This document shows, one piece after another, positions 18,891 through 51,887 of a stretch of 64,000 nt of DNA. Under the pieces are notes generated by a model, which saw nothing but the letters and a program-made list of their open reading frames with translations, was not told the origin of the DNA and did not search any database. How positions within the stretch are numbered: position 1 is the stretch's first letter; each line of letters opens with the position of its first letter. The position numbers and the translations under genes were made by a program. The stretch comes from Chrysoperla carnea (Eukaryota > Arthropoda > Insecta > Neuroptera > Chrysopidae), in the NCBI RefSeq assembly GCF_905475395.1, contig NC_058342.1, positions 1,236,001 through 1,300,000 on the forward strand, in the 5' to 3' direction.

Positions 18891-19039
18891 AGTAGATAAG
18901 CTATACCGTTTCTAGCTCACTTTGGACCATTTTTACATGTTATTTCTTATGGGAAATTCTAAGGTTCATTTTGCACTTTTTGTACCCTTTTTGTAATGTA
19001 AATTGTCTAACTTGAACACATACTTACTAAATGTATACA

Positions 19040-19295
19040 AGTACAACCCATCTGAATACACTAGAATACTCTTGTTAACATACATCATACTCTTTACTTA
19101 CCATTATTTTATATTATATTCAGTACAACCCATCTGAATACACTAGAATACTCTTGTTAAGCCACTTTCATACTCTTTACTTACCATTATTTTATATTAT
19201 ATTCAGTACAACCCATCTGAATACACTAGAATACTCTTGTTAACCCACTTTCATACTCTTTACTTACCATTATTTTATATTATATTCAGTACAAC
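19040..19295. repeat. Three-unit 82-bp tandem repeat near the Polinton 1 end
   Basis: Units start GTACAACCCATCTGAATACA, with a fourth partial unit. The units differ mainly at AACATACAT versus AACCCACTT or AGCCACTTT. Mirror copy at about 51483-51738; a single further unit lies at 23620-23720 and 47058-47158. Confidence 0.9.
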
Positions 19296-19488
19296 CCAAC
19301 TTATTGAATATATTTTTACTCGTGATTTACATACTGACAAAGTGGAATGATGTTTGATTATTGTAGAAATAACTAATTTATCTTAGCGTTTATGACGTAA
19401 TTGTTGATATAATTGTCAACATAATTCTTGATGTATGAACAGCGTATATTATTAATAAGTATATGTATTGCTTAAAAAAATATTAGTT

Positions 19489-19561
19489 ACTACTATAAGA
19501 TTTGAACGCGGGCCCTCATGAGTGGAAGTCTACTATGCTAACCACTCAACCACAAGACCTT
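19489..19561 (-). other. tRNA-like sequence in the Polinton 1 arm
   Basis: On the minus strand an A-box-like TGGTTGAGTGGTTAGC and a B-box-like GCGTTCAAATC are spaced as in a tRNA, with CTTCCAC in the anticodon region. The mirror copy is at 51217-51289 (+), with one base changed just outside. A more decayed relative lies at about 23916-23981 and 46797-46862. It may be a tRNA relic or pol III promoter. Confidence 0.5.
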
Positions 19562-20869
19562 GTTACAACATAGACAAAAAAGTTAATAACTTAAAAACGT
19601 TTTTACAAAAATAATTTAAAATAATATATTCATGAAGGTCAACAACTGTATTAATTAATATTCAAGTATATTATTTACACATAGTTTTCAATATAATCTT
19701 TTTGAATGTAATTTGATATTTAATTGTTTGTTACGTATATATTTAAACATTTTAGTAGAAATCATTAATTTGATTCCCATTTCTTAACTTTTTCTCACAT
19801 CCAAATGTATGTATGTATTATATATTTTTTATTTAAAGGAATATGATTAATTTTTCCAATAATAAAAGTTATGAATTATTATTTAACATTCACAACTATA
19901 AATGCAACTTATATGGGCTAATTCAAAGGTACCTCACCTACTAACTTGACATGATTGCATTTAATATAGTTTTATATAATACTTATCGAATATAACAGAA
20001 ACCAATAATACAGATAACAACAATTATGCAGCATTTTACAAGCGAGACCATCTGAACATAATTAATTTATAAAACTAATTGTGTATTATAAAAACATCAT
20101 GAAGATCATTACCAAATGTAATTAAAAGCATTTTTTCTCCAGAAACTTACCTGCAATAACATCTACTTAAAAAATTAGAAGCTCATCTGTAATAATGTTT
20201 AGATACAAATTTGTACCATAGGAATATTATTTAAAGTGTTTTGTAAAAAGAAACTCAATCACATTATTTTGATTTTTTATTTTATTAGTAAACAATAATA
20301 ATATACAGTATAATAATATTAATATATGCAAAATTATAGATAGATAGCTAATTTACAAGGTAATAATTCAATGGTTAAAGGAAACTAATACATTTTTAAA
20401 TTTATTAGTAAACAATTGATATACAATACAATAATATTAATACTAAATTATAAATAGATAATTAATTTATAAGATAACAATTCTATTCGCTAAAAGAAAA
20501 CTCTAATTAATTTGTTTAATTATTAGTAAATAATTTAATTTATAAGATTCTACAAGTCCTATGACAAATTTTAAAACATAAGATTTTTTTTTTGTATATA
20601 TGGACACATATTCAATTTGTTTTAGATGTTATAAAAATTAATTTTACGTTACACACACATAATCACTCTTTAATGAGATGATATTCTAAAAATCAACAAA
20701 AAACGTTTTGGCATAATATTAAATAGGTAATAATTAATTAATTAATTAAAGTTTACACTGATTTTTTAACAATATTGAGATTATTGAGATAACTTATATT
20801 AACTTATGAATACAAGAACTAAGTGATATTAATGTTGATCTCATCAACGAATAAATGATATTATCTTGC
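19562..20869. other. AT-rich arm segment, no gene recognised
   Basis: Non-coding. It shares blocks with 23990-25840 (for instance the ACTTATCGAATAT and AACTAATTG-type stretches), so the arm contains an old internal direct duplication. Mirror at 49909-51216. Confidence 0.6.
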
Positions 20870-23538
20870 TCACGAATTAACTATACCTTTTTCTTTTTTG
20901 ATACAAGATCCATCTATCTCTTCAACTTTTCGTTTATAAGAAGTTTTCAAAGAGTAGTGAGCCGAAGATAGTGTATTATAGGAACCAGGTATAATGTATC
21001 GCTTATCATCATAAGGGCTTAGAGCAATTTTTGTCTGAGTTTGAGTATAAAGTTTAAGTTTTTCAGATTTTATGAGGTTTTGATTAACCGATATCTCTTT
21101 AAAGTTCTCCAAACATTTAACATAATCTTTAAATGTTATTTTCGTACTAAGAACCGACCTTTTAACTCCCTTAGCTTTTTTTGTTAACCTAAGATTATTT
21201 AATTCTTGTTTAATATTCCCATGATAGCATCGAATGTAGCATCATCAAGTGATTTTGCATCTTTTTCTGGAGGGGTTGCTATTTTTAACGTATATAATTT
21301 TGATCTTAATCCAACAAAATGAGTCATAGGAGTTCCATTGTTTTCATCCTTCATCATAACAAGCACTTTTTTATTAACGCAAGGTATATTATAAACATTA
21401 GAAGGATGGTAATCACTGGTATCAAAATACTTGTAACAATCTCTTTTTATCATTTCATAGGGATCATGGTTTTTAATTTCATAAATAACCGAGTCAGTAT
21501 CTGTATAGATAGCGGTAGAATCATCACCCAACTGTGGAATCATATAGCCATAATGAAAATCATAAATTGTAGTTTTAGCTAAATCTAAGATTGCCATACC
21601 AATATACAAAGGCTTATTGAAGAATATCTCCATCTTTTTCAACTCAATGGCCACCAAGTTGGGATTGAAAATTGTACAAGAATGAAATTCGGGTTTAGAT
21701 ATATAAGCTTCTGCCCCATATCGACCCTCCCATTTCGTAACAAGCTTAACATTTGAATGTTTTCTAATATTTTCCATTGTTTTTCCAAAGACAGCATTAT
21801 TCATTAATTTATACAAATTTTTCTCAAAATCATTATTGGCATTCTTTCGTAGATTGGTATTTAAATCAATATATGATCGAAGCCAAGGCAACTGTTTAAA
21901 TTTTAAAACTTTATGAATTTTTGTTAATTTTAATCTGTAGTTTAATGCTTGCTTCAAAGTTTTATAATGAATTTCATATCGCTCTTTATCATGAAGGGTA
22001 CTCAACAATTTACTCTGTTTAGAATTAGGTGCTGATCTATGTTCAGGGCAAAAAGGTAAATCCTTATGTTTATCAAGTTTTTCAGGATATTTGAGATCAA
22101 CTTCTAGGAAATATCCACTATCGACATCATCCGAAATCATTGAAACATCAATATTTGTATCACACCACTCAAAACCACTGTAAGGAAGACACTGACTCAT
22201 CGCCCATCCATATTGATTGTTAATGTCTAAATAAAGTAAATGCACTTCAGGCTTGGATGGATCAAATCCTGGAACGTATTTATTATTCGCTGTGGAACGT
22301 CGTTTCATACATTGACTCAAACCACCGCGAATTCCTCGTTCAACAAACATCATCATATCTATATCAGTCAACAATTCGAGCTCAATATTTATATACTTCA
22401 ACATACATTCTCACGTCTAGAACACTGTTTTTCCTCCAATCGATTATAGAATGCTTCTATGTTCGGTAGTTGAGTGTAATTAAATTTGTCAAACGAATCA
22501 ACAAAATCATATGGCATTACACCTTTCTTTGTCAACAATTGAAACTGATTTTCCGAAATTTTAGAAAAATGCTTCTTCATGTTGGGAAATTCCAACAAGT
22601 ATGATACTAGCTTATCGAGGGAAGACGCTAAAAATCTATACGAATCTATGAAACGGAATTTAATAGATGAATCATCAATGTTTTTGGTAAAAGAAATATA
22701 TTTTTCTTTAGTAACAGGTAGTAGTTCAACGCGTCCACCAATCTTTGTTGCAACATCCTCCACAATCAATATACCATCATAATTCGACATATTATGGAAA
22801 ACTACAGGAACCACATGACTGTCTTGATAGTTAATATTACATGATTCATGTGCGGGACCTCTATAATTAGTTCCATCTCTATATCCACCACTTTTCGACA
22901 TAAGATGAAAATGGTCTCCAACTTTTTTCTCTCCATCAACAAACGGCTTATTGCATATATGACAACATGATGATTTTAGAAAATCTTTCTCTTCAATGAT
23001 AGTTAATGGATCCATCTCATATGAACATAAAAATATTGTTTCTACTTCTTCAGATATTCGCATCAATTACTTTGTAAACCAATCCATACAATCCATTCCC
23101 CGATATGAGTGATAATAAGATAGGGAATCATCATAAGCACATTTAAAATAATACCCCACAACAGCAGGTATATGTTTTTGATATCGAATTTTATCATCCA
23201 TTGGTTCCAATAAACTTTCAATGTCTGCGTAGATAATAAATGGTGTTTTCTCTTCTTTTTTTTTTAAATTTTAAAATATTTTCTCCTTCCTTAGGCATTC
23301 TTATCGCACAATCATTCATTTTCTTACAGTTTTCATAATGGGTGTTTACATGTACAGTTTTCAATTTTTCTTCTGAGTAGAAATAATGTAAACATCTATC
23401 ACAGAAAAACTTCCTATGACTATCTTTATTAAGTTGTGAAGAAACCAAACGTGATAGATTTTTAACCCAAACGTAATGATAACGAATGGGTAATAAATTA
23501 TTATCATCATCATCATCATAATGATTCTGAATCATCAA
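20870..23538 (-). pseudogene. polB: Polinton 1 DNA polymerase B, left copy (dead)
   Basis: This is a protein-primed family B polymerase (DNA_pol_B_2 type) in four broken blocks: 23538-23218, 23066-22398, 22404-21199 and 21112-20870. Visible parts are a Cys/His finger (FFCDRCLHYF), the ExoI motif YADIES in a shifted frame near 23220, an endonuclease-VII-like CHICN...CNINYQD motif, ExoII HNMSNYDG, and polymerase motifs DINNQYGWAM, KLMNNAVFGKTME and YTDTDSVIYE. Compared with the intact gene at 38679-42560, about 65 residues are deleted at 22400, removing the ExoIII Y..TD motif, and the N-terminal ~300 residues are absent. In-frame stops and shifts add to this. It is inactive. Confidence 0.93.
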
Positions 23539-24415
23539 TAAGTTTATATGCTTAATCGTTTTATTTTTGCTCAGATAACATGGTTTAACACATGCATACT
23601 ACTAATGTATATTATAATTAAGTACAACCCATCTGAATACACTAGAATACTCTTGTTAACCCACTTTCATACTCTTTACTTACCATTATTTTATATTATA
23701 TTCAGTACAACCCAACTTATTGAATACATTTTTTACCCATGATTTACATACTGACAAAGAAGTGAAATGATGTTTGATTACTGTAGAAATAGTTGATTTA
23801 TCATAGCGTTTATGACGTAATTGTTGATATAATTGTCAACATAACTTCTTGATGTATGAACAGTGAATATTATTAATAAGTACATGTATTGCTTAAAAAA
23901 ATTTTAGTTACTACTATAAGATTTGAACGCATGTTTGTTGAATGGAAGGCGGTTATGCTAACCATTCATATACGGATCAACGTACCGTAGTTATGGAAAA
24001 AGTTAATTAGTTGAAAACATTGAAATTTTATATAACTAAATAACAAAATTATTTGAAGGTCAACGACGTATATTGTTAAGATTAATTTTAATATGATATA
24101 TTTTTTAAAATACCTACGATCCAGTTTGTGAATGTAATTTAACATTATTTTTCATGCGTACCTACATATTGTATTTAGATATTTTATTAGAAATAGTTTA
24201 ATTTGTTTTGTATTTCTTACCTTTATCTCATATCCATATTTAAAGATATCAAATTAATTATTCCAGTAATAAAAGTTTTGAATTTTTATTTATGATTCGC
24301 TATTATTAATACAACTTATATGAACTAATTCAAAAGTACGTACATACCTTACATATTAACTTAGTATAAACACTTTTAATATACAGTTTTTTACTTTATA
24401 ATACTTATCGAATAT
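23539..24415. other. Arm segment with an 82-bp repeat unit and decayed tRNA-like piece
   Basis: It begins with one unit of the terminal 82-bp repeat, then sequence parallel to 19300-19480, then the decayed tRNA-like block. No gene. Mirror at 46363-47239. Confidence 0.6.
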
Positions 24416-24720
24416 CGGATCAATTTGGATAATATCGGAGCATTTTGGATAATATCGGAGCAATTTTTATCAAAAATTGATATTATCGGAGCAATTTTTA
24501 TCAAAAATTGATATAGTCGGAGCAATTTTTATCAAAAATTGATATTATCGGAGCAATTTTTATCAAAAATTGATATAGTCGGAGCAATTTTTATCAAAAA
24601 TTGATATTATCGGAGCAATTTTTATCAAAAATTGATATAGTCGGAGCAATTTTATCAAAAATTGATATAGTCGGAGCAATTTTTATCAAAAATTGATATT
24701 ATCGGAGCAATTTGGGTAAT
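24416..24720. repeat. 33-35 bp satellite with an internal dyad
   Basis: Seven to eight units of TCGGAGCAATTTTTATCAAA plus AATTGATAT(T/A). Each contains the palindrome TATCAAAAATTGATA. Mirror copy at about 46058-46362. A related GGAGTAAT-type satellite lies at 63535-63640 near the same position of Polinton 3. Confidence 0.93.
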
Positions 24721-25082
24721 ATCGGTTTGATTTGACTATTTGTATGTTTGCACTTATTCCAGAATCTAATCAAATTATGAACTTGACATTTTTAAGTCAT
24801 CATTTAAGGTAAGTTCATTATTTCAATCAGAATTCATATTGATTCACAAACATCTTCTACACTAATACCTGGAATTGGGGAAATATGATGGATGTATTTT
24901 TTTGAAAATATCTTGTAATTCCAATAATTTTAAAATAATAAAAATGTTTTATCTTGATAGACTGTTTTATTTTTAAAAATTATTCATAGAACGTATTACT
25001 AAATGATTTTTAAAAAGAAATTACTAAATGATTTTTAATAAGAAATTACTAATTTTATGTTAAAAGTTAATATCAACTTGTT

Positions 25083-25145
25083 ATTTAATTATATTTGTTT
25101 TTCGCAAGTGATGAATTATAGACAGTATTTCTTTTCCAACATATG
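25083..25145 (-). pseudogene. 3' tail of the Polinton C2H2-finger gene
   Basis: About 20 codons matching the end of the gene at 61568-62086 (GKEILSIIHHLRKTNIIK) plus its 3' flank. Mirror at 45633-45695. It shows that Polinton 1 once shared this gene with Polinton 3. The rest of the gene is gone. Confidence 0.75.
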
Positions 25146-25847
25146 TAGGAAAAGATAACATTTGACCTTGATGAGATTAGTTACCTTAAGTCAACAACAG
25201 TAGACTTACGCGTTGAGTCTGAAGCTAGTCCTTATTTCCTAACAAAAACGCAAGTTCTCTGTTTAGTGTTCCTCAACAGATACTTTATATGTAATTCTTT
25301 AACAAATAATGTTAATAAAGAGGCTTAAGTCATACATAGTGGACGTACATATATTATTAATTGTTTTATTTTATCAGTGTTTACAAAACATATAGTCATT
25401 TATTTGTGAACTTGCATGTTTAATACAAAAGAAAGAGCTGAATGAGTAGATTAATGCACTCAAAACAGGTGAACAATCAACAGTCATACAAGATAACTTA
25501 AGTCTATAACTAAAGAAAAACTCTAATTAATTTTTCATTTCTTATTAAACAATCTGATATACTAGATTCTACAAACTCTATAACAAATTTTAACACAAGA
25601 CATTTTTAATATATGAACTTACAAAAATTAATTTTACCATAATCATATCTCAATATGATGACTTTCTAAAAATGAACAATTAGATTTTAATATAATGTTA
25701 AATATGTAATAATTTATAGATAATTAAAGTTTAAACTAATTTTTAGCAAAAGCTAGATTATTGAAATATAATTTTAATAACTTATGAATACAAGAACTAA
25801 GTGATATTAATGTTGATCTCATCAACGAATAAATGATATTATCTTGC

Positions 25848-26183
25848 TCACGAATTAACTATACCTTTTTCTTTTTTGATACAAGATCCATCTATCTCTT
25901 CAACTTTTCGTTTATAAGAAGTTTTCAAAGAATAGTGAGCCCAAGGTAGTGTATTATAGGAACCAGGTATAATGTATCGCTTGTCATCATAAGGACTAAG
26001 AGCGATTTTTGTTTGAGTTTGAGTATAAAGTTTAAGTTTTTCAGATTTTATGAGGTTTTGATTAACCGATATCTCTTTAAAGTTCTCCAAACATTCAACA
26101 TAATCTTCAAAAGACCACACCTCATAGAATACGAATAGCATTAAATTTTTCAAAATAGCTAGGTCCCAACAAATTTTTTTCAT
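25848..26183 (-). pseudogene. Second PolB C-terminal fragment in the left arm
   Basis: The last ~85 residues repeat the C-terminus of the dead PolB at 20870-21112, from the DYVECLENFKEI region to the end GIVNS. They follow about 26 unrelated residues (MKKICWDLAILKN). Changes such as LPWAHYS against LSSAHYS show it is an independent duplicate. Its 3' flank also matches that of the main copy. Mirror at 29544-29879 (+). Confidence 0.88.
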
Positions 26184-27530
26184 AAGTTTTCAATACTTGG
26201 TTGAAAAAAAAAAAAAAACAAAATTTTATTAAAATATATAGATAAATTTTGTGTTTTAGGTATTTAATTGCCTCTTAATAGGTAAAATTGATATTCTACC
26301 ATAAGTTCAGTTCATAGTATTTTTAAAATGACAAAAAAGTTAGGAAAAACCCAAATTTTTCACAAAATATCCACATTTTTTGTGTTTCAATGATAATTTA
26401 GTTTGTAAATGTGCAAATAATTTAGACATAATTGACAACTTTACAGATAGTAATTGATGATTGTAATAATTAATTATTATAGTTTTGTGTCATATTATTT
26501 CTTCAAAAATGACAAAAAACATTCAAAAACAAAAAATTCACATAAAAAAGGAGTAGCTATTATGTTTCAGTGATACATTATGTTGTAAATCCCGATTATT
26601 TGTTTCTTATTATTTTTGTGAGTGACAAAAAGGTGGAAGAAACATAAAATTTGCATGAAAAATGGCTTATTTTTATGTAATATGAAAAATGCCTAAGAAA
26701 CTATTAATTTTACATAAATTTTAATATTTTTTTGTTCTTTGAACTATAATTTCACCCCACTGACTCTAAATACAAGTCTTAACGATATGATTTTCAAAAT
26801 TAAGAATGAGGATAAATGTATGATAAATCACAACACCATATACATTCCATAATAATTTTGAATAAATTAGAGTGGTACACGTTATTTTCTTAAATAATCA
26901 CAGGAGATAAACGCAAGGGCTAAAAACACGCAGACCTAACAAACTTGATCCCATTAAACCAACCAGTAGATCAGTGCTAAATCATGAAAATATATTTTCA
27001 TACACCTTTTTTGTTTGCCAGAAATACTTAAAAATTGTTAACTTTGTGTGCTAGAACACTAATTTAAGCTTCAAATGAGTAAATACCCCAAATTTTTATT
27101 AATGTATTTGTTAAGTCTTAAGTCGAAATTTTCATAAAAAAAAAAAATCAATTTTTATGTTTCCTAGCAGTAATTAGGGTAAATTTTGTTTATTTTTATG
27201 ATAAAATCAACTCTTCTCGAGATATTTCAAATTTTTAGATTTATAAGTAAGATTGCATTTAAGTTAGATTGATAATTTACTTATTTTATATATCATATAA
27301 GTAACATATTCAATACCCAAGAAAAAGACACACGCTATTTTCTTAAATAATCTCTGTTTTATAAAAATAAATCAAAATTCTCCTGTCCCGTTAGATTTCA
27401 TATCATGGTATATGAATACTATCAAAAATTATCAAATTTAACCTCAAAAAATTTTTCAAAAAACTCCTTAGCATGGATATGAAGCGAGAAATCAGAGTAT
27501 TAAAGCAGATATAAAAACAATTTTATTAAA
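26184..27530. other. Inner arm, non-coding
   Basis: AT-rich sequence with runs such as TGACAAAAA and AAAATTTTTCA; no gene recognised. Mirror at 28197-29543. Confidence 0.6.
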
Positions 27531-27770
27531 AAATTGATAAAATCAGAGTATTAAAGCAGTTATCGAATCAATTTTGTTAAAAAATTAAGAAAAATCGGAG
27601 TAGTTTTTAACAAAAACTTATAAAATCGGAGTAGTTTACAACAAAAATTGATAAAACCAGAGTAATCTGTAACAAAAAATTGATAAAACCAGAGTAATCT
27701 TTAACAAAAATTGATAAAACCAGAGTAATCTTTAACAAAAAATTGATAAAATCGAAGTAGTTTTATCATT
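27531..27770. repeat. ~31-bp tandem repeat beside the palindrome centre
   Basis: Units of AAAATTGATAAAACCAGAGT plus AATCTTTAAC, with older variants (AAAATCGGAGTAG). Mirror at about 27957-28197. Confidence 0.88.
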
Positions 27771-27779
27771 TATATGGTT

Positions 27780-27948
27780 GGGTGGGGGTTGGGTTGGGTT
27801 GGCTTGGGTTGGACGGCGATGGTGGTTCAATAATATTTTAGAAAAACGCATTTACCTTTACAGTGAATATTTCTAAATGCGTTTTTCTAAAATATTATTG
27901 AACCACCATCGCCGTCCAACCCAAGCCAACCCAACCCAACCCCCACCC
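27780..27948. other. Palindrome centre with G4-type tracts and ~19-nt loop
   Basis: Four G runs separated by 1-2 nt lie at 27780-27798, with the complementary C runs at 27930-27948. Between them is a perfect stem ending GAAAAACGCATTTA / TAAATGCGTTTTTC around the asymmetric loop 27855-27873. This is the axis of the 17.9-kb palindrome. Confidence 0.9.
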
Positions 27949-30089
27949 AACCATATAAATGATAAAACTACTTCGATTTTATCAATTTTTTGTTAAAGAT
28001 TACTCTGGTTTTATCAATTTTTGTTAAAGATTACTCTGGTTTTATCAATTTTTTGTTACAGATTACTCTGGTTTTATCAATTTTTGTTGTAAACTACTCC
28101 GATTTTATAAGTTTTTGTTAAAAACTACTCCGATTTTTCTTAATTTTTTAACAAAATTGATTCGATAACTGCTTTAATACTCTGATTTTATCAATTTTTT
28201 AATAAAATTGTTTTTATATCTGCTTTAATACTCTGATTTCTCGCTTCATATCCATGCTAAGGAGTTTTTTGAAAAATTTTTTGAGGTTAAATTTGATAAT
28301 TTTTGATAGTATTCATATACCATGATATGAAATCTAACGGGACAGGAGAATTTTGATTTATTTTTATAAAACAGAGATTATTTAAGAAAATAGCGTGTGT
28401 CTTTTTCTTGGGTATTGAATATGTTACTTATATGATATATAAAATAAGTAAATTATCAATCTAACTTAAATGCAATCTTACTTATAAATCTAAAAATTTG
28501 AAATATCTCGAGAAGAGTTGATTTTATCATAAAAATAAACAAAATTTACCCTAATTACTGCTAGGAAACATAAAAATTGATTTTTTTTTTTAATGAAAAT
28601 TTCGACTTAAGACTTAACAAATACATTAATAAAAATTTGGGGTATTTACTCATTTGAAGCTTAAATTAGTGTTCTAGCACACAAAGTTAACAATTTTTAA
28701 GTATTTCTGGCAAACAAAAAAGGTGTATGAAAATATATTTTCATGATTTAGCACTGATCTACTGGTTGGTTTAATGGGATCAAGTTTGTTAGGTCTGCGT
28801 GTTTTTAGCCCTTGCGTTTATCTCCTGTGATTATTTAAGAAAATAACGTGTACCACTCTAATTTATTCAAAATTATTATGGAATGTATATGGTGTTGTGA
28901 TTTATCATACATTTATCCTCATTCTTAATTTTGAAAATCATATCGTTAAGACTTGTATTTAGAGTCAGTGGGGTGAAATTATAGTTCAAAGAACAAAAAA
29001 ATATTAAAATTTATGTAAAATTAATAGTTTCTTAGGCATTTTTCATATTACATAAAAATAAGCCATTTTTCATGCAAATTTTATGTTTCTTCCACCTTTT
29101 TGTCACTCACAAAAATAATAAGAAACAAATAATCGGGATTTACAACATAATGTATCACTGAAACATAATAGCTACTCCTTTTTTATGTGAATTTTTTGTT
29201 TTTGAATGTTTTTTGTCATTTTTGAAGAAATAATATGACACAAAACTATAATAATTAATTATTACAATCATCAATTACTATCTGTAAAGTTGTCAATTAT
29301 GTCTAAATTATTTGCACATTTACAAACTAAATTATCATTGAAACACAAAAAATGTGGATATTTTGTGAAAAATTTGGGTTTTTCCTAACTTTTTTGTCAT
29401 TTTAAAAATACTATGAACTGAACTTATGGTAGAATATCAATTTTACCTATTAAGAGGCAATTAAATACCTAAAACACAAAATTTATCTATATATTTTAAT
29501 AAAATTTTGTTTTTTTTTTTTTTCAACCAAGTATTGAAAACTTATGAAAAAAATTTGTTGGGACCTAGCTATTTTGAAAAATTTAATGCTATTCGTATTC
29601 TATGAGGTGTGGTCTTTTGAAGATTATGTTGAATGTTTGGAGAACTTTAAAGAGATATCGGTTAATCAAAACCTCATAAAATCTGAAAAACTTAAACTTT
29701 ATACTCAAACTCAAACAAAAATCGCTCTTAGTCCTTATGATGACAAGCGATACATTATACCTGGTTCCTATAATACACTACCTTGGGCTCACTATTCTTT
29801 GAAAACTTCTTATAAACGAAAAGTTGAAGAGATAGATGGATCTTGTATCAAAAAAGAAAAAGGTATAGTTAATTCGTGAGCAAGATAATATCATTTATTC
29901 GTTGATGAGATCAACATTAATATCACTTAGTTCTTGTATTCATAAGTTATTAAAATTATATTTCAATAATCTAGCTTTTGCTAAAAATTAGTTTAAACTT
30001 TAATTATCTATAAATTATTACATATTTAACATTATATTAAAATCTAATTGTTCATTTTTAGAAAGTCATCATATTGAGATATGATTATG
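27864..30089. repeat. Palindrome right arm, inner part
   Basis: Reverse complement of 25638-27863. It ends in ATTATG, the left copy of the Polinton 2 target duplication. The arm resumes at 45141. Confidence 0.92.
29544..29879 (+). pseudogene. Second PolB C-terminal fragment, right-arm copy
   Basis: Mirror image of 25848-26183 with the identical translation. See that entry for the match to the main PolB tail. Confidence 0.88.
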
Positions 30090-32510: not shown

Positions 32511-32546
32511 AGAATAAAAGTTTTTTTTAAAAAAAAACTTATAAAT

Positions 32547-32585
<39 letters not shown>

Positions 32586-32639
32586 TTAATGATTAAAATT
32601 TACATTTTAAAAAAAATTTACAGAAAAAAATTATTATTA

Positions 32640-38438: not shown

Positions 38439-38678
38439 TTTGTATGTTTAAACTAACACTAAATTGTTTTCTATAATAATTCAACCTAACTATCAATTTT
38501 TTGACACCCCCACCACTACTCTATCAATTGTTCATGCGCACTACTCTATCAATTGTTTGTACACCTATCACAATACCGAACCACTTTGAGGATCATCACA
38601 ACAACAGCAGGACACATTTCTGAAACAACAGCAAAAATTAGCTAAATATTAAAAACATAAAATATAAAATACTTACAC

Positions 38679-41600
38679 TCAACAAATAATGCTATAGTGG
38701 CCCCATGGTTTTGTTTCACATGAATTGTGAGTAATGTGTCGTTTTTGGTCAAATGGTGATAAGCCCACTTTCTGCTGTTTGATGGTATGTAAGCGGTGTC
38801 GCTTGGATTGGATGCTTTGCTGAACACGGTAAAAGTTACGGTTCTCAAGCAAACACCGCTTATAGTCCTCAAAAGTAAGTTTTCGGATAGCTGACTTCTT
38901 GAGACCCTTGGATCGTTTAGTCTCTTTTTTATTTTGCACCCGAATAGCATACATTTTGCTACGTAATCCGACAAATTCTAGCATAACATCACCATTATTT
39001 TCATCGGACATTAAACCCTTGACTTTCTTATTACGTAGTGGCATACCATAGATGTTGTCGGGTGCATAGTCAGCCGTATCAAAACGATTAATATCCTGTT
39101 TCATGACCTCATAGACGTCAGTATTTCTCACGCTATAAATTAGACTATCGGTGTCTGTGTATAATAACCTGACATTTGTGGGGTTGTACCGTTGGTACAT
39201 GTAGTTGTAGTGGAAGTCATACACAAACGTTTTCGATATGTCTAAAATTGTGAAGCCTATGTAGATGGGTTTGTTGAAACGTATCTGTGATTTTTTCATT
39301 TCAACAATACTGACGTCATTGTCGAGCACCATCATACTGTGAAAATTGGGGTTGGCAATTAATTTCTTCACACCATGTTTTCCATCCCAATTTTTTCGTA
39401 TGTACACAACCCGATGTTTCCTCACATTCTCCATGGTTTTACCGAAGATGGCATTAATCATGAGTTTGAATAATGCTTTTTCAAACTCATTTGAGGCGTT
39501 CTTGCGCATCTCGGTATTGAAATCAATATATGGTTTCAACCATGCAGATTGATCGAATTGTAACACACGGTGGTATTTTGTTACCTTAACACCGAGTTGT
39601 GTATACAGTTTTAAATTCCTGTAGTGCACGACATAGTTGGTCTTATTGTAAAGGGTTGACAGAAGATATTTTTGTTTTGATCCAGGTGGTTTCGTTGTCT
39701 CCGGACATGGCGGTAAATCGCTAAAGTTATCATGTAGATGTTGGGGTATTTCAAGGTCTACTTCTAAAATGTACCCGACTGGTGAATCATCTGCAACATC
39801 CTCGATGTTTGGTGTGTCAACCCACTTAAAATTTCCTGTTGGTAGGTATCCACACATTGCTGCACCATATAGGTTCACCACATCGTAATACATAAGGTAG
39901 ACATCTTCTTGAGTTTTATCATACCCCTCTTCCATGTACTTATTGTTTGCCTTAGCATAGCGATTAGAACATTGACTTACACCGCCTCTGATTCCTTTCT
40001 CGATAAACAACAAGTCATCAATATCCGTGAACAATTCCAATTTGATATTGGTGTATTTCAACATGGCGCTCCACGTATAGCCAGGAAGTGTGTAATAGTG
40101 ACTAGGATCGAGACTATAGCTATGAATACAAGTGTTACGGAAATTTTCAAAAATATCCGCAAGTAGTAACACATCAGTTTTCATATACAGGTCTGAATAA
40201 TCACCTAGTGTATGTAAATTGAATGTGTTCCATACCTGTATCGCATGGTTATAATCCTCATCCGTTATGTGTTCATCTGTTAACACACTGTAAAACGCCT
40301 CCTTTGGTGGTAATTTTGTCTCTTGGAGACGTCCCCAGCTACTCATGTATTCATATGGAAATACACCTTTTCTCGTTAGCAATTGAAATTGTTCATCATT
40401 ACTGACCTATAAAAAAATAGAAAACAAATTACAACCCTGTATTAAAAATTAATTATTTTTTATCATTTACCTCTTTATGTAAAATGGATTTTTTATCATT
40501 ATCTAAATATGAGGCCAGATTTTCCAACTTGTCTGCGAGAAATCGGAAGGAATCAATGAATCTTAATTGAATGTCCGAGACGTGCTTTGTGAAACTGATG
40601 TACTTTTCTTTGTTGATGGGCAACACATCAACTTGACCGTCGATTTCCGTCAGCAGAGCTTCAATAATAAAATGCGAATCGTATCCACTTAAGTTGTGCA
40701 TCACAACAGGTATCACCCTTGAATCTTGATAATTCAGATTACAAAATTGGTGTGCTGCTCCACGGTAGATACCTAAAATAGATTAATATAAAATTAGATG
40801 AAATTAAAAAATAATAAATAACCTGCATTACCTGTGCGATGTGAATGGTCGCGAACACGTATGGAATTGGATACGAAATCTTTACCACAAATGTGACACT
40901 TCTCTGCTGACATAAAATCCAGTTCTTGTTCGACGGTGAGCGGATACATTGGTTTAACGTGTTTTATTTTTTGCTCTAATGAGTACGCTACTTGTTCCAG
41001 TTCATGAACAAACCACTTGACACAATCAGCACCACGGTATGCCTTATAAAACGATTGGTTGGGATCATGGGTACAATGAACATAGTAACCTACACTGTAG
41101 GGTACATGTTTTTGAATATTTTTTGTATAAGACCCATGATCCATTTCCATGTCTTCATGATGTTGTGGTACCAATAGTGCCTCAAAGTCAGCGTACACCA
41201 TATACTCAACACGTTCCTTGCTGTTGAAATCTTTGAACTCAACGAACCGCTCGTCATCAGTTTCAGGCATTCGTACCCGCACTGCTTCTTTCTCACCACA
41301 ATTTACTGAATGCTGTTGGAGTTTGCCTTCTGTAGCAAAATAGTTGAGACATCGATCACATAAAAATATTTTATGCTCGAATTTTGTTACACCCGATCGA
41401 GCCAACTTTGCTAAATTTTTTATCCAGCAAAAGTGGTGACTGTTCCCATTCTCCACAGCCAATAGATGAATTTTCTGCCCCGCAGTGTTCGAACTAACGC
41501 GTACAGGGAAAATTTCCAAACCATGTATAAACGAATCTTTGTAGCCGTACACGTTAATCGATAAATGCGGGTTCATCTTTTCAAATTTATTAATTTGATC

Positions 41601-42560
41601 TAGAGACATGGGAAACTTTAATCCATCATATTTTAAATGATATTTATAGTGCGGGTACTTAGTTAAACGTTGAGGATTCCTTTCAACCGGGTAAAGTGCT
41701 GACATTATCGACCATAGAAAACAATGTTGGTCTTTATTCTGGACATTAACCACAGCCAATTTATTTTTGATGACTGGTGGTAGTTCACAAAAAGTCCCAG
41801 CTGTGATCGGAGAGTACTTATTCATGTGGACTCGAATATTTATGATCATGTCAAGAGCCCAACCGCTATCGCGTTCCTGGAATTCTTCCAATTTTTTCAA
41901 CAAATAGTTTTTGACATGATCAATGTACCACTCCTGCATGTCCGTTGTCAGATACATTTCCTTGGCCGGCGTTATAAAAGTTTTCAAATCCTCCTCTTTG
42001 GTGGTGGGCTTAATGAAATTGCCCGTGAACATAATATACACCTGAAATAAAATCTCATTAGACTATTTAAATTATAAATCTTAAATTTTACTTACCTTGA
42101 GGGGATGCTTCACTAGCTCACGCCGAACGTGTCTTCTAAACATTGGAAATGCCCGGTTGAAAAATATATTTGGATCTTTATAATCCAAATTTGTAATCAT
42201 ACCAGTCTTCACCCTGCCCTGATGGTGGGTTTCAATTGTCTCCCAGATTAGATGTCGATTTTGTTTTTTGGTGACTCCACCACCTTGTTTAACTAAATCT
42301 AATCGCAGTCGGTGAAGTTGCCGCTGGTATGATTTACAAAGTCCAATATTAGCTTCAAGACGCAGAGGATTTTCTTTCTTTAACATCAACATCTTTTTGA
42401 ATAAGCGGATGTTCTGCTTATTAAGTATCATCCATCGCTCAGCTTCCTCCACCGTCTTGATGAGCCTCAACGCTCTCTCCACTTTCTTCATCATATCAGT
42501 GCTACCACCTTGAGGTACCGCGTTTAGCGTTTGCATAACATTTTGTTCGTAGGTGTCCAT
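38679..42560 (-). CDS. polB: Protein-primed DNA polymerase B, four exons, 1234 residues
   Basis: Replicates the Polinton genome from terminal-protein-primed ends. Exons: 42560-42096, 42041-40832, 40772-40471, 40406-38679; introns of 54, 59 and 64 bp all have GT-AG ends (GTAAGT, GTAATG, GTAAAT donors; TTTCAG, TTTTAG, TTATAG acceptors), and the joined frame is open throughout. The N-terminal ~350 residues precede a Cys/His finger ([10 protein letters not shown]...H..C) and ExoI YADFEALL. An endonuclease-VII-like CHICGKDF...RDHSHRTG motif crosses intron 2, followed by Exo[12 protein letters not shown] and Exo[14 protein letters not shown]. Polymerase motifs: [41 protein letters not shown], then LRSKMYA. 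All catalytic residues I can check are present. A further 58-bp GTAAGT...GAAAG intron may lie in the leader (42561-42618). Length fits Polinton PolBs. Confidence 0.93.
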
Positions 42561-42757
42561 CTTTCAAAAAAATTATATTTAAGTTTCACAATATTATTTA
42601 AAAAATTTATACACTTACCGTTATATTTTCAAATACTAAGCAAAATATACGTTACCGAACCGTTCAACACTAAAGTTAACTTACAACTGAGTAATATTTG
42701 TTTTTTGTATAAAATATATAGACTAAGTTTAGAATAATAAATATACCAAAAACAAAA

Positions 42758-42816
<59 letters not shown>

Positions 42817-42969
42817 GAAAAAACTAACTGAAGCAAAGGTGAATTTCAAAAGAGATACTTCAACAGCTACGTACATCACTTTTTATAGCATTATCCCCAC
42901 CACTAAAAAAGTTGTAATTTGATATTTTTATAATCGTAATTCAAACTAATTATTTTTTCTTGGAATTCA
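42561..42969. other. PolB upstream region with (AAT)n microsatellite
   Basis: Contains the possible leader intron (42561-42618) and an AAT repeat of about 19 units at 42758-42816; a poly-Leu reading frame there is accidental. TATA-like TATAAAATATATAG lies near 42705-42720. It meets the TIR near 42970. Confidence 0.6.
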
Positions 42970-43880
42970 GACAAGTTTAAACATGTTCAAACAAGTTTGA
43001 ACATGTTCAAACAAGTTTGAACTTGTAGCAGGATGATGATATCATATTTTTCAAGGTCAAATTAACATATTATTGAAAATAGCTGACACGTGTAAAATTA
43101 TTTTAAGATCAAAGTCCATTCAAACAAGTTTGAACATGTATTTTTATTATGTAAATTTCAAGTGTCATATTACATTGCTAATTCAATAAAAAAAAAAATA
43201 TTAACATCCGGTCACGTGTTTTGACACATGTAAAATTATTTCAAACAAGTTTGAACTTGTTACAAGATGATGATATCATATTTTTCAAGGTCAAATTAAC
43301 ATATTCTTGAAAATTGCTGACACGTGTGAAATTATTTTAAGATCAAAGTCCATTCAAACAAGTTTGAACATGTATTTTTATTATGTAAATTTCAAGTGTC
43401 ATATTACAATGCTGACTCAATAAAAAAAAATATTAACATCCGGTCACGTGTTTTGACACATGTAAAATTATTTCAAACAAGTTTGAACTTGTTACAAGAT
43501 GATGATATCATATTTTTCAAGGTCAAATTAACATATTCTTGAAAAATGCTGACACGTGTGAAATTATTTTAAGATCAAAGTCCATTCAAACAAGTTTGAA
43601 CATGTATTTTTATTATGTAAATTTCAAGTGTCATATTACATTGCTTAATCATAAAAAAATATTAATATCCGGTCACGTGTTTTGACACATGTAAAATTAT
43701 TTCAAACAAGTTTGAACTTGTTACAAGATGATGATATCATATTTTTCAAGGTCAAATTAACATATTCTTGAAAATTGCTGACACGTGTAAAATTATTTTA
43801 AGATCAAAGTCCATTCAAACAAGTTTGAACATGTATTTTTATTATGTAAATTTCAAGTGTCATATTACATTGCTAATTCA

Positions 43881-43914
<34 letters not shown>

Positions 43915-45134
43915 TAACATCCGGTCACGTGTTTTGACACATGTAAAATTATTTCAAACAAGTTTGAACTTGTTACAAGATGATGATATCATATTTTTCA
44001 AGGTCAAATTAACATATTCTTGAAAATTGCTGACACGTGTGAAATTATTTTAAGATCAAAGTCCATTCAAACAAGTTTGAACATGTATTTTTATTATGTA
44101 AATTTCAAGTGTCATATTACAATGCTGACTCAATAAAAAAAATATTAACATCCGGTCACGTGTTTTGACACATGTAAAATTATTTCAAACAAGTTTGAAC
44201 TTGTTACAAGATGATGATATCATATTTTTCAAGGTCAAATTAACATATTCTTGAAAATTGCTGACACGTGTGAAATTATTTTAAGATCAAAGTCCATTCA
44301 AACAAGTTTGAACATGTATTTTTATTATGTAAATTTCAAGTGTCATATTACATCGCTGACTCAATAAAAAAAAATATTAACATCCGGTCACGTATCTTGA
44401 ATTTTATCATGTATAAAGTGTCAAATTACAATATTTTTCAAGGTCAAATTAACATATTCTTGAAAATTGCTAACTAATGTCAACGTCCCGCCCCCCGTTC
44501 ACTCTCCGCCACTATTGGTCAAAGCCAATGACGTCATCAATGCTTAGGCAGCCATTATTCTCCTCCACCACACCTCCCGACGCCATCTTGATTTACTATT
44601 GGCCAATGTCGAGGTTTCCAACATTCACCTAGGTTTGCCCTTACGTCCCGCCCCCTGTTCACTCTCCGCCACTATTGGTCAAAGCCAATGACGTCATCAA
44701 TGCTTAGGCAGCCATTCCTTCCCCCACCACACCTCCCGACGCCATCTTGATTTTTACAGCGCTACTATTGGTCAATGATGTCCCCCCTCCAACTTCGCAT
44801 TCAACCGAGGTTTGCCCTTTTTGGAAAAGTGTACCATTCTTTGGGGTTGATTATCTAACGTCCAATTCCCGCCCCCTTTAAGCCCCACTTCCAAAACCAC
44901 GCCCACCACTTTAAGCCTCACTTCCGCCAAGAAACACACTAACGCTCTGTCAGCCACGCCCCACCACACCTCCCAACGCCATCTTGATTTACTATTGGTC
45001 AATGACGTCATCTATCCCCTCCAACTTACGAGGTTTCCAACATTCACCTAGGTTTGCCCTTTTTGGAAAAGTGTACCATCAAAGCGGGGTTACTTGAGGT
45101 CAAACTGTGCTGAAACCGCTGTGACTCTTCTACT
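42970..45134. repeat. Polinton 2 right TIR
   Basis: Inverted copy of the left TIR: array units at 42970-44475, GC-rich motif island at 44480-45115, terminus CTCTTCTACT at 45134. One unit carries a ~31-base A run (near 43885-43910) not seen in the left TIR. Confidence 0.9.
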
Positions 45135-45140
45135 ATTATG
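45135..45140. other. 6-bp target duplication of Polinton 2, right copy
   Basis: ATTATG; left copy at 30084-30089. The other palindrome arm keeps the unoccupied site CATAAT at 25638-25643. Confidence 0.95.
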
Positions 45141-48100
45141 GTAAAATTAATTTTTGTAAGTTCATATATTAAAAATGTCTTGTGTTAAAATTTGTTATAG
45201 AGTTTGTAGAATCTAGTATATCAGATTGTTTAATAAGAAATGAAAAATTAATTAGAGTTTTTCTTTAGTTATAGACTTAAGTTATCTTGTATGACTGTTG
45301 ATTGTTCACCTGTTTTGAGTGCATTAATCTACTCATTCAGCTCTTTCTTTTGTATTAAACATGCAAGTTCACAAATAAATGACTATATGTTTTGTAAACA
45401 CTGATAAAATAAAACAATTAATAATATATGTACGTCCACTATGTATGACTTAAGCCTCTTTATTAACATTATTTGTTAAAGAATTACATATAAAGTATCT
45501 GTTGAGGAACACTAAACAGAGAACTTGCGTTTTTGTTAGGAAATAAGGACTAGCTTCAGACTCAACGCGTAAGTCTACTGTTGTTGACTTAAGGTAACTA
45601 ATCTCATCAAGGTCAAATGTTATCTTTTCCTACATATGTTGGAAAAGAAATACTGTCTATAATTCATCACTTGCGAAAAACAAATATAATTAAATAACAA
45701 GTTGATATTAACTTTTAACATAAAATTAGTAATTTCTTATTAAAAATCATTTAGTAATTTCTTTTTAAAAATCATTTAGTAATACGTTCTATGAATAATT
45801 TTTAAAAATAAAACAGTCTATCAAGATAAAACATTTTTATTATTTTAAAATTATTGGAATTACAAGATATTTTCAAAAAAATACATCCATCATATTTCCC
45901 CAATTCCAGGTATTAGTGTAGAAGATGTTTGTGAATCAATATGAATTCTGATTGAAATAATGAACTTACCTTAAATGATGACTTAAAAATGTCAAGTTCA
46001 TAATTTGATTAGATTCTGGAATAAGTGCAAACATACAAATAGTCAAATCAAACCGATATTACCCAAATTGCTCCGATAATATCAATTTTTGATAAAAATT
46101 GCTCCGACTATATCAATTTTTGATAAAATTGCTCCGACTATATCAATTTTTGATAAAAATTGCTCCGATAATATCAATTTTTGATAAAAATTGCTCCGAC
46201 TATATCAATTTTTGATAAAAATTGCTCCGATAATATCAATTTTTGATAAAAATTGCTCCGACTATATCAATTTTTGATAAAAATTGCTCCGATAATATCA
46301 ATTTTTGATAAAAATTGCTCCGATATTATCCAAAATGCTCCGATATTATCCAAATTGATCCGATATTCGATAAGTATTATAAAGTAAAAAACTGTATATT
46401 AAAAGTGTTTATACTAAGTTAATATGTAAGGTATGTACGTACTTTTGAATTAGTTCATATAAGTTGTATTAATAATAGCGAATCATAAATAAAAATTCAA
46501 AACTTTTATTACTGGAATAATTAATTTGATATCTTTAAATATGGATATGAGATAAAGGTAAGAAATACAAAACAAATTAAACTATTTCTAATAAAATATC
46601 TAAATACAATATGTAGGTACGCATGAAAAATAATGTTAAATTACATTCACAAACTGGATCGTAGGTATTTTAAAAAATATATCATATTAAAATTAATCTT
46701 AACAATATACGTCGTTGACCTTCAAATAATTTTGTTATTTAGTTATATAAAATTTCAATGTTTTCAACTAATTAACTTTTTCCATAACTACGGTACGTTG
46801 ATCCGTATATGAATGGTTAGCATAACCGCCTTCCATTCAACAAACATGCGTTCAAATCTTATAGTAGTAACTAAAATTTTTTTAAGCAATACATGTACTT
46901 ATTAATAATATTCACTGTTCATACATCAAGAAGTTATGTTGACAATTATATCAACAATTACGTCATAAACGCTATGATAAATCAACTATTTCTACAGTAA
47001 TCAAACATCATTTCACTTCTTTGTCAGTATGTAAATCATGGGTAAAAAATGTATTCAATAAGTTGGGTTGTACTGAATATAATATAAAATAATGGTAAGT
47101 AAAGAGTATGAAAGTGGGTTAACAAGAGTATTCTAGTGTATTCAGATGGGTTGTACTTAATTATAATATACATTAGTAGTATGCATGTGTTAAACCATGT
47201 TATCTGAGCAAAAATAAAACGATTAAGCATATAAACTTATTGATGATTCAGAATCATTATGATGATGATGATGATAATAATTTATTACCCATTCGTTATC
47301 ATTACGTTTGGGTTAAAAATCTATCACGTTTGGTTTCTTCACAACTTAATAAAGATAGTCATAGGAAGTTTTTCTGTGATAGATGTTTACATTATTTCTA
47401 CTCAGAAGAAAAATTGAAAACTGTACATGTAAACACCCATTATGAAAACTGTAAGAAAATGAATGATTGTGCGATAAGAATGCCTAAGGAAGGAGAAAAT
47501 ATTTTAAAATTTAAAAAAAAAAGAAGAGAAAACACCATTTATTATCTACGCAGACATTGAAAGTTTATTGGAACCAATGGATGATAAAATTCGATATCAA
47601 AAACATATACCTGCTGTTGTGGGGTATTATTTTAAATGTGCTTATGATGATTCCCTATCTTATTATCACTCATATCGGGGAATGGATTGTATGGATTGGT
47701 TTACAAAGTAATTGATGCGAATATCTGAAGAAGTAGAAACAATATTTTTATGTTCATATGAGATGGATCCATTAACTATCATTGAAGAGAAAGATTTTCT
47801 AAAATCATCATGTTGTCATATATGCAATAAGCCGTTTGTTGATGGAGAGAAAAAAGTTGGAGACCATTTTCATCTTATGTCGAAAAGTGGTGGATATAGA
47901 GATGGAACTAATTATAGAGGTCCCGCACATGAATCATGTAATATTAACTATCAAGACAGTCATGTGGTTCCTGTAGTTTTCCATAATATGTCGAATTATG
48001 ATGGTATATTGATTGTGGAGGATGTTGCAACAAAGATTGGTGGACGCGTTGAACTACTACCTGTTACTAAAGAAAAATATATTTCTTTTACCAAAAACAT

Positions 48101-51100
48101 TGATGATTCATCTATTAAATTCCGTTTCATAGATTCGTATAGATTTTTAGCGTCTTCCCTCGATAAGCTAGTATCATACTTGTTGGAATTTCCCAACATG
48201 AAGAAGCATTTTTCTAAAATTTCGGAAAATCAGTTTCAATTGTTGACAAAGAAAGGTGTAATGCCATATGATTTTGTTGATTCGTTTGACAAATTTAATT
48301 ACACTCAACTACCGAACATAGAAGCATTCTATAATCGATTGGAGGAAAAACAGTGTTCTAGACGTGAGAATGTATGTTGAAGTATATAAATATTGAGCTC
48401 GAATTGTTGACTGATATAGATATGATGATGTTTGTTGAACGAGGAATTCGCGGTGGTTTGAGTCAATGTATGAAACGACGTTCCACAGCGAATAATAAAT
48501 ACGTTCCAGGATTTGATCCATCCAAGCCTGAAGTGCATTTACTTTATTTAGACATTAACAATCAATATGGATGGGCGATGAGTCAGTGTCTTCCTTACAG
48601 TGGTTTTGAGTGGTGTGATACAAATATTGATGTTTCAATGATTTCGGATGATGTCGATAGTGGATATTTCCTAGAAGTTGATCTCAAATATCCTGAAAAA
48701 CTTGATAAACATAAGGATTTACCTTTTTGCCCTGAACATAGATCAGCACCTAATTCTAAACAGAGTAAATTGTTGAGTACCCTTCATGATAAAGAGCGAT
48801 ATGAAATTCATTATAAAACTTTGAAGCAAGCATTAAACTACAGATTAAAATTAACAAAAATTCATAAAGTTTTAAAATTTAAACAGTTGCCTTGGCTTCG
48901 ATCATATATTGATTTAAATACCAATCTACGAAAGAATGCCAATAATGATTTTGAGAAAAATTTGTATAAATTAATGAATAATGCTGTCTTTGGAAAAACA
49001 ATGGAAAATATTAGAAAACATTCAAATGTTAAGCTTGTTACGAAATGGGAGGGTCGATATGGGGCAGAAGCTTATATATCTAAACCCGAATTTCATTCTT
49101 GTACAATTTTCAATCCCAACTTGGTGGCCATTGAGTTGAAAAAGATGGAGATATTCTTCAATAAGCCTTTGTATATTGGTATGGCAATCTTAGATTTAGC
49201 TAAAACTACAATTTATGATTTTCATTATGGCTATATGATTCCACAGTTGGGTGATGATTCTACCGCTATCTATACAGATACTGACTCGGTTATTTATGAA
49301 ATTAAAAACCATGATCCCTATGAAATGATAAAAAGAGATTGTTACAAGTATTTTGATACCAGTGATTACCATCCTTCTAATGTTTATAATATACCTTGCG
49401 TTAATAAAAAAGTGCTTGGTATGATGAAGGATGAAAACAATGGAACTCCTATGACTCATTTTGTTGGATTAAGATCAAAATTATATACGTTAAAAATAGC
49501 AACCCCTCCAGAAAAAGATGCAAAATCACTTGATGATGCTACATTCGATGCTATCATGGGAATATTAAACAAGAATTAAATAATCTTAGGTTAACAAAAA
49601 AAGCTAAGGGAGTTAAAAGGTCGGTTCTTAGTACGAAAATAACATTTAAAGATTATGTTAAATGTTTGGAGAACTTTAAAGAGATATCGGTTAATCAAAA
49701 CCTCATAAAATCTGAAAAACTTAAACTTTATACTCAAACTCAGACAAAAATTGCTCTAAGCCCTTATGATGATAAGCGATACATTATACCTGGTTCCTAT
49801 AATACACTATCTTCGGCTCACTACTCTTTGAAAACTTCTTATAAACGAAAAGTTGAAGAGATAGATGGATCTTGTATCAAAAAAGAAAAAGGTATAGTTA
49901 ATTCGTGAGCAAGATAATATCATTTATTCGTTGATGAGATCAACATTAATATCACTTAGTTCTTGTATTCATAAGTTAATATAAGTTATCTCAATAATCT
50001 CAATATTGTTAAAAAATCAGTGTAAACTTTAATTAATTAATTAATTATTACCTATTTAATATTATGCCAAAACGTTTTTTGTTGATTTTTAGAATATCAT
50101 CTCATTAAAGAGTGATTATGTGTGTGTAACGTAAAATTAATTTTTATAACATCTAAAACAAATTGAATATGTGTCCATATATACAAAAAAAAAATCTTAT
50201 GTTTTAAAATTTGTCATAGGACTTGTAGAATCTTATAAATTAAATTATTTACTAATAATTAAACAAATTAATTAGAGTTTTCTTTTAGCGAATAGAATTG
50301 TTATCTTATAAATTAATTATCTATTTATAATTTAGTATTAATATTATTGTATTGTATATCAATTGTTTACTAATAAATTTAAAAATGTATTAGTTTCCTT
50401 TAACCATTGAATTATTACCTTGTAAATTAGCTATCTATCTATAATTTTGCATATATTAATATTATTATACTGTATATTATTATTGTTTACTAATAAAATA
50501 AAAAATCAAAATAATGTGATTGAGTTTCTTTTTACAAAACACTTTAAATAATATTCCTATGGTACAAATTTGTATCTAAACATTATTACAGATGAGCTTC
50601 TAATTTTTTAAGTAGATGTTATTGCAGGTAAGTTTCTGGAGAAAAAATGCTTTTAATTACATTTGGTAATGATCTTCATGATGTTTTTATAATACACAAT
50701 TAGTTTTATAAATTAATTATGTTCAGATGGTCTCGCTTGTAAAATGCTGCATAATTGTTGTTATCTGTATTATTGGTTTCTGTTATATTCGATAAGTATT
50801 ATATAAAACTATATTAAATGCAATCATGTCAAGTTAGTAGGTGAGGTACCTTTGAATTAGCCCATATAAGTTGCATTTATAGTTGTGAATGTTAAATAAT
50901 AATTCATAACTTTTATTATTGGAAAAATTAATCATATTCCTTTAAATAAAAAATATATAATACATACATACATTTGGATGTGAGAAAAAGTTAAGAAATG
51001 GGAATCAAATTAATGATTTCTACTAAAATGTTTAAATATATACGTAACAAACAATTAAATATCAAATTACATTCAAAAAGATTATATTGAAAACTATGTG

Positions 51101-51887
51101 TAAATAATATACTTGAATATTAATTAATACAGTTGTTGACCTTCATGAATATATTATTTTAAATTATTTTTGTAAAAACGTTTTTAAGTTATTAACTTTT
51201 TTGTCTATGTTGTAACAAGGTCTTGTGGTTGAGTGGTTAGCATAGTAGACTTCCACTCATGAGGGCCCGCGTTCAAATCTTATAGTATTAACTAATATTT
51301 TTTTAAGCAATACATATACTTATTAATAATATACGCTGTTCATACATCAAGAATTATGTTGACAATTATATCAACAATTACGTCATAAACGCTAAGATAA
51401 ATTAGTTATTTCTACAATAATCAAACATCATTCCACTTTGTCAGTATGTAAATCACGAGTAAAAATATATTCAATAAGTTGGGTTGTACTGAATATAATA
51501 TAAAATAATGGTAAGTAAAGAGTATGAAAGTGGGTTAACAAGAGTATTCTAGTGTATTCAGATGGGTTGTACTGAATATAATATAAAATAATGGTAAGTA
51601 AAGAGTATGAAAGTGGCTTAACAAGAGTATTCTAGTGTATTCAGATGGGTTGTACTGAATATAATATAAAATAATGGTAAGTAAAGAGTATGATGTATGT
51701 TAACAAGAGTATTCTAGTGTATTCAGATGGGTTGTACTTGTATACATTTAGTAAGTATGTGTTCAAGTTAGACAATTTACATTACAAAAAGGGTACAAAA
51801 AGTGCAAAATGAACCTTAGAATTTCCCATAAGAAATAACATGTAAAAATGGTCCAAAGTGAGCTAGAAACGGTATAGCTTATCTACT
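45141..51887. repeat. Palindrome right arm, outer part
   Basis: Reverse complement of 18891-25637 (x + y = 70778). Contains the C2H2 tail (45633-45695), satellite (46058-46362), decayed tRNA-like piece, PolB copy, tRNA-like piece (51217-51289) and terminal 82-bp repeats. No gene lies outside those. Confidence 0.93.
47240..49908 (+). pseudogene. polB: Polinton 1 DNA polymerase B, right copy (dead)
   Basis: Mirror of 20870-23538 with the same four blocks (47240-47560, 47712-48380, 48374-49579, 49666-49908), the same TAA before the second block and the same ~65-residue deletion at 48380. One residue differs: KKVLGMM here, KKVLVMM on the left; Gly matches the wider context less ambiguously, but direction is unknown. 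Shared damage shows the gene was already dead when the palindrome arose, or that the arms are homogenised. Confidence 0.93.

Follow-up and report, generated by a model that had tools for sequence, protein, structure and literature searches.

How does a Polinton come to sit in a chromosome as one long palindrome? The question is raised by a 64,000-nt stretch of assembled sequence from the insect Chrysoperla carnea (contig NC_058342.1, positions 1,236,001 to 1,300,000), from here on called the window, whose own coordinates are used below. An outer element of the Polinton (Maverick) type spans positions 18891-51887, bracketed by exact 6-bp copies of CGTCTG, and carries a second, nested Polinton. 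With the nested element set aside, the outer element consists of two nearly identical inverted arms and a 19-nt loop. We favour, as a somewhat probable explanation, an origin as the snap-back or inverted-dimer replication product of an already defective Polinton, integrated into the chromosome by the integrase of a helper.

Termini and target site

At the left junction CGTCTG is followed by AGTAGATAAGC from position 18891, and at the right junction GCTTATCTACT runs to 51887 and is itself followed by CGTCTG. The two copies of the target duplication, read directly at the junctions, are:

18885..18890, no strand: left copy of the target duplication CGTCTG
51888..51893, no strand: right copy of the target duplication CGTCTG

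AG(T)-type termini together with a 6-bp target duplication mark an element as a Polinton/Maverick, and the outer element has both; the motif types of Maverick termini are described in PMC8097293. Both outer ends had been called authentic in an earlier reading of the same DNA, made without database searches (the sequence-only reading), and the AGT-type ends with CGTCTG on either side bear this out. Searched for as 18 bases with up to 3 mismatches, the terminal motif has two occurrences in the window, and these are the outer ends themselves. It is absent from the palindrome centre under the same search, and no target duplication is present in the sequence read there. This confinement of the motif to the outer ends argues against two head-to-head insertions of complete elements. 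The exact 22-base terminus had 0 matches in viral_contigs.

The outer element as a single palindrome

Aligned as reverse complements, with the nested Polinton left in place, the arms span 8,964 columns and differ by 3 substitutions and 1 indel in an A-run (4 differences, 99.96% identity). An inverted match of such length is not chance. Inverted self-alignment defines the following parts:

18891..27854, plus strand: arm 1, from terminus to loop
27855..27873, no strand: central loop of 19 nt, non-palindromic (4 of 19 positions match its own reverse complement)
27874..30089, minus strand: inner part of arm 2, ending in the ATTATG copy at 30084-30089
45135..51887, minus strand: outer part of arm 2, reaching the right terminus

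The outer arms (18891-25643 and 45135-51887) differ at 2 of 6,753 bp (19490/51288 and 21359/49419), and their outermost 599 bp are identical. Over their 2,211 columns the inner arms differ by one substitution and one indel, the latter in an A-run: segments 25644-26203 and 29524-30083 have 0 differences, segments 26205-27854 and 27874-29523 have one (27136/28592), and the A-run at about 26204 makes the arms unequal in length by one base. The 189-nt centre (27770-27958) folds at -109.5 kcal/mol, with a z-score of -26.55 relative to its shuffles. Mirror symmetry ends at the CGTCTG copies: compared over 100 bp, the two flanks match at 27 positions, and the count is the same with the duplication included or excluded.

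Polintons have terminal inverted repeats (TIRs) around a unique core, whereas the unique part of the outer element is 19 nt. The sequence-only reading had described the whole element as one palindrome around a loop of about 19 nt, with a TIR equal to the entire element, and both descriptions agree with the alignment, in which the inverted repeat covers all but the loop. Its arithmetic of 17,946 = 2 x 8,973 is correct as well, by subtraction (8,973 against 2,226 + 6,747).

Contents of the arm

The recognisable gene of the arm is a decayed PolB, and part of its neighbourhood is present twice in direct orientation:

20870..23598, minus strand: PolB pseudogene of arm 1, five pieces in three frames, matching the PolB of the nested element
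47712..49579, plus strand: the 222-aa and 401-aa open reading frames (ORFs) of arm 2, mirror copies of the two longest PolB pieces
19012..21133, plus strand: subterminal region including the 3' end of PolB, copy one (the parts that match are 19012-19993 and 20468-21133)
23584..26111, plus strand: the same region again as a diverged direct repeat, copy two (matching parts 23584-24415 and 25487-26111)

The five minus-strand pieces of arm 1, read from 23598 to 20870, are 33-60% identical to the PolB of the nested element, and a Pfam match to DNA_pol_B_2 lies at 22398-23066 (E=1.9e-7). The 401-aa piece has no Pfam match, yet it is up to 70% identical to PolB-like proteins of beetles and other insects, the best among the matches listed being that of Exocentrus adspersus (70%; 7,870 of 7,998 scored candidates passed and the best 120 were listed). 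Taken together, these similarities support a Polinton-type PolB identity for the arm gene. The same piece had no match to solved structures in a comparison by sequence (E 0.1), none in PHROGs (E 0.1) and no confirmed relative in viral_contigs.

The N-terminus of the arm PolB is missing. An internal gap near 22.4 kb was sized against seven relatives aligning to both flanking pieces: about 61-64 residues are absent by comparison with six of them and 53 by comparison with the seventh, P0011, while the PolB of the nested element gives 65; an intron is ruled out here because the flanking pieces overlap. The remaining pieces are separated by one stop and by frame changes. At least four lesions are common to both arms, and one of the arm differences (21359) also falls in PolB. 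Judged by these lesions, the gene is dead. It reads outward, from the centre toward the terminus, whereas in vertebrate Mavericks both gene modules usually face the centre, with exceptions (PMC8097293).

In the direct duplication, segment 19012-19993 pairs with 23584-24415 and segment 20468-21133 with 25487-26111, at 76-91% identity by segment and 90-94% in the best sub-blocks. The second copy abuts the truncated PolB on its centre-facing side. The sequence-only reading does not mention this duplication. The orientation of PolB, its lesions and the internal duplication indicate that the arm had been rearranged and was already defective by the time it was mirrored. The proposal in the sequence-only reading of a snap-back product or dimer of one terminal half thus holds in part: an inverted dimer of a terminal part is what is found, but with a truncated, internally deleted and outward-reading PolB and a diverged second subterminal copy lying centreward, the arm is not a simple half of an ordinary Polinton.

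None of the 17 stop-to-stop frames of at least 60 aa in arm 1 (17 of 17 searched) matched integrase, packaging ATPase, protease or capsid families in Pfam (thresholds E 0.01, 1, 0.1 and 0.1), a search that also misses the main PolB piece and that decayed gene remnants could escape. Other frames gave weak Pfam matches that stayed below the cut-off (IF2_N, ATG101, TRIQK, Baculo_PEP_C and others) and were put down to chance. Since no integrase or capsid gene was found in the arm, any movement would have needed helpers, and the outer element appears to be at most a non-autonomous derivative.

The nested Polinton

Arm 2 is interrupted by a second element with its own ends and target duplication:

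30090..45134, no strand: nested second Polinton, 15,045 bp, AGTAGAAGAG ends, ATTATG on both sides
45135..45140, no strand: second ATTATG copy beside the nested element, read in the sequence

Arm 1 holds the matching site uninterrupted, with a single ATTATG, so that on the simplest reading the nested insertion is younger than both arms. Its TIRs (30090-30861 and 44363-45134) are 772 bp long and differ at 3 positions. Inverted similarity reaches about 2.1 kb (96.7%) because of 229-232-bp repeat arrays, and the middle is free of long inverted repeats. The nested PolB is in pieces and reads inward; the end of a packaging ATPase is present (Pox_A32, E=3.3e-5, 23.9 bits against a cut-off of 22.8), and no integrase or capsid was found by Pfam among 9 of 9 frames of at least 90 aa. 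This element is therefore probably defective too. Its anatomy is ordinary in outline, providing an ordinary-TIR comparison within the same window.

The repeat arrays lie inverted at 30849-32420 and 43006-44400. Diverged units also occur in a third Polinton, which begins with AGTAGAAGAGTCA at 56788 and runs off the window at 64000; it is about 79% identical to the nested element over the first 1.4 kb, and its ATPase piece (60224-60682) is 97% identical to that of the nested element over 118 aa. The nested Polinton further contains a tandem duplication of about 670 bp (32625-33960, 98.7% identical), and a partial copy of the same unit at 35508-35601 overlaps its ATPase end.

Origin of the palindrome

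Protein-primed replication initiates at each end of a linear DNA and proceeds by strand displacement. We hypothesize that a rearranged Polinton genome with a dead polymerase was copied by the protein-primed PolB of a helper. A 3' end near the present centre would have folded at a short inverted repeat and copied its own strand to the terminus, yielding a hairpin, and one more round of replication from the single open end would have converted this hairpin into a linear inverted dimer with an authentic terminus at both ends. The integrase of a helper Polinton, for which only the two ends are needed, would then have joined the linear dimer to the chromosome, creating the CGTCTG duplication, and an ordinary Polinton would later have inserted into arm 2. 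Snap-back during replication, integration as a palindrome, the helper enzymes and each later step to integration are what we infer.

Several observations fit such a course of events. The outer element is an inverted dimer of one terminal part with the same terminus at both ends, the form by which a snap-back genome is recognised. Its symmetry extends exactly between the duplications, as would be the case for the insertion of a finished linear molecule with two identical ends, and the 19-nt loop fits a hairpin turn. The PolB lesions are shared by the arms and the outermost 599 bp are identical, so that the ends lack decay of the kind seen in PolB, which is consistent with a molecule that was defective before integration. 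By analogy, the element could be labelled defective-interfering.

A number of points weigh against this origin. A single copy is known, from assembled sequence, and Pfam found no integrase gene in the arm (17 of 17 frames of at least 60 aa). The short inverted repeat required for snap-back is not visible, everything there now being palindromic, and a head-to-head join of sister molecules broken 19 nt apart would look identical. The orientation of PolB and the internal duplication demand further events, the arm having already been rearranged. Finally, the TIRs of the nested element, which should be the younger, carry 3 differences in 772 bp, whereas the arms, over 8,964 columns, carry 3 substitutions. 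Possibly the nested TIRs differed on arrival, gene conversion has kept the arms similar, or the assembly smoothed its consensus. Either of the last two would mean that the age of the palindrome cannot be read from how alike the arms are, and would weaken the inference drawn from the identity of the outermost 599 bp. The claim that the element was inserted as a palindrome is favoured indirectly, by symmetry that extends precisely between the two duplications; the near-identity of the arms does not establish it on its own, as gene conversion could also produce this.

The strongest alternative, possible though in our view unlikely, is that the palindrome was made in the chromosome: a break in an ordinary Polinton would have allowed the right TIR to invade the left TIR and copy the left half up to the break, keeping flanks and target duplication, with later arm-to-arm gene conversion keeping the arms alike. 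Both ends and CGTCTG would likewise remain intact, a decayed PolB shared by the arms is explained, and conversion accounts for arms that differ less (3/8,964) than the nested TIRs (3/772). What this course demands is a break, copying to the exact broken end and conversion that reaches the identical outermost 599 bp. Moreover, if PolB decayed in the chromosome, the uncopied outer TIR should have diverged at several sites and none is seen, a rough argument that depends on an assumed ratio between small indels and substitutions, and one that is void if conversion is frequent.

Near-identical inverted arms are hard for assemblers, and the palindrome is known from assembled sequence alone. An assembly artefact, in which very long TIRs surround a unique core that was lost or folded at the centre and consensus building may have smoothed arm differences, would also suit the closer match between the arms than between the TIRs of the nested element, which is the younger. 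We nevertheless regard it as improbable, since symmetry halts at the duplications where a simple folded read would have mirrored the flank as well, and since the nested Polinton with its duplication is in one arm only and four differences separate the arms. Even under an artefact the TIRs would measure at least about 6.7 kb, each outer arm being joined to a flank of its own. A pair of independent insertions, or a head-to-head fusion of two elements, is another conceivable origin, since adjacent inverted copies can in general arise from two insertions; but with neither terminal motif nor duplication at the centre and breakpoints that must coincide within 19 nt, this explanation is hardly credible here.

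Motifs and repeats in the window

By a plain pattern search, the only G-quadruplex-type motifs in the 64 kb are a mirror pair located 66-84 nt from the centre:

27780..27798, plus strand: G-quadruplex-type motif in arm 1 (such a motif turned up in 0 of 500 first-order shuffles of the arm)
27930..27948, minus strand: its mirror in arm 2

The pair may have stalled the polymerase, a post hoc and only suggestive idea. Minisatellites built on a common CGGAG/CTCCG core lie in both the outer and the nested element (24411-24713, 27489-27763 and 36592-36823), and a match to the one at 24411-24713 lies at about 63550-63641, where the third Polinton may extend. A Copia retrotransposon at 106-4696 encodes gag, integrase and reverse-transcriptase domains in two ORFs; its direct repeats of 283 bp (106-388 and 4414-4696) are 99.6% identical, and it is probably a young long terminal repeat insertion.

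Implications and comparison with known systems

Polintons are thought to replicate as protein-primed linear DNA, and their replication intermediates are hard to see. If the snap-back origin is correct, a chromosomal inverted dimer with authentic ends would preserve such an intermediate in fossil form and tie Polintons to the defective genomes known from other protein-primed replicons. We consider it rather doubtful that the outer element goes further and represents a family of self-complementary parasites, that is, coding-dead palindromic replicons that use helper PolB and integrase and either compete with full-length Polintons or make double-stranded RNA (dsRNA) against them. The displaced strand of such a replicon would fold into a complete duplex with an intact origin end, and dsRNA would arise if the centre were transcribed. 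Candidates in other genomes could be recognised as elements that end like Polintons, have a 6-bp duplication and consist of an inverted repeat throughout. No palindromic Polinton was found among titles and abstract openings in searches of an open-access library. Both palindromic defective genomes and foldback transposons are familiar kinds, to which a Polinton integrated as a palindrome would add a variant.

With ordinary Polintons/Mavericks, as described in PMC8097293, the outer element shares AGT-type ends, a 6-bp target duplication, a Polinton-type PolB and a length of about 18 kb. For intact vertebrate Mavericks the TIRs measure 46-1,447 bp (mean 402) and whole elements 12.7-24.6 kb (mean 16.9); Polinton particles are noted as not having been observed (PMC8097293). 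Between such TIRs lies a core with integrase and capsid genes (PMC8097293), whereas in the outer element all but 19 nt is inverted and a dead PolB is the only recognisable gene. Without its nested insertion the outer element (17.9 kb) lies within this length range, the figures being for vertebrates and not insects. A search with a 16-row PolB alignment found 1 locus in viral_contigs and 7 in genome_contigs, at 32-59% identity over the best segment; 0 of these 8 loci had an inverted self-match (blastn, default megablast words, E 1e-5), 7 of the 8 being pieces of only 3-7 kb, so that this negative carries little weight. Loci L002-L008 are contigs in bacterial metagenome-assembled genomes that encode Polinton-type PolB relatives, perhaps through contamination of bins by eukaryotic or viral contigs.

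Palindromic defective adenovirus genomes and the hairpin plasmids of yeast pGKL1 derive from protein-primed linear DNAs and are inverted dimers or hairpins of one end. These derivatives are extrachromosomal and are not known as integrated transposons. Adeno-associated virus (AAV) is a parvovirus that relies on hairpin priming and is not known to have a PolB. Foldback-type transposons such as Galileo consist largely of inverted repeats, with a transposase of another family and shorter arms. Galileo is named in PMC8504770. Snap-back genomes are a major category of defective AAV particles, and like the outer element they are self-complementary: they comprise one genome moiety with an inverted terminal repeat, include symmetric forms and replicate with Rep and helper functions (PMC8235507). 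The account drawn on here presents them as genomes of particles rather than as insertions into a chromosome flanked by a target duplication (PMC8235507).

Origin-dependent inverted-repeat amplification in yeast likewise yields inverted dimers from hairpin-ended linear DNA, with a small loop at the junction (PMC4689423). The turn is made at small interrupted inverted repeats (PMC4689423). That process differs in using a chromosomal or plasmid origin of replication and involves neither integrase nor terminal protein. Among stable inverted junctions in yeast, the smallest loop at one locus is 17 bp, and the 19-nt loop of the outer element is similar in size to the loops of such junctions (PMC4689423).

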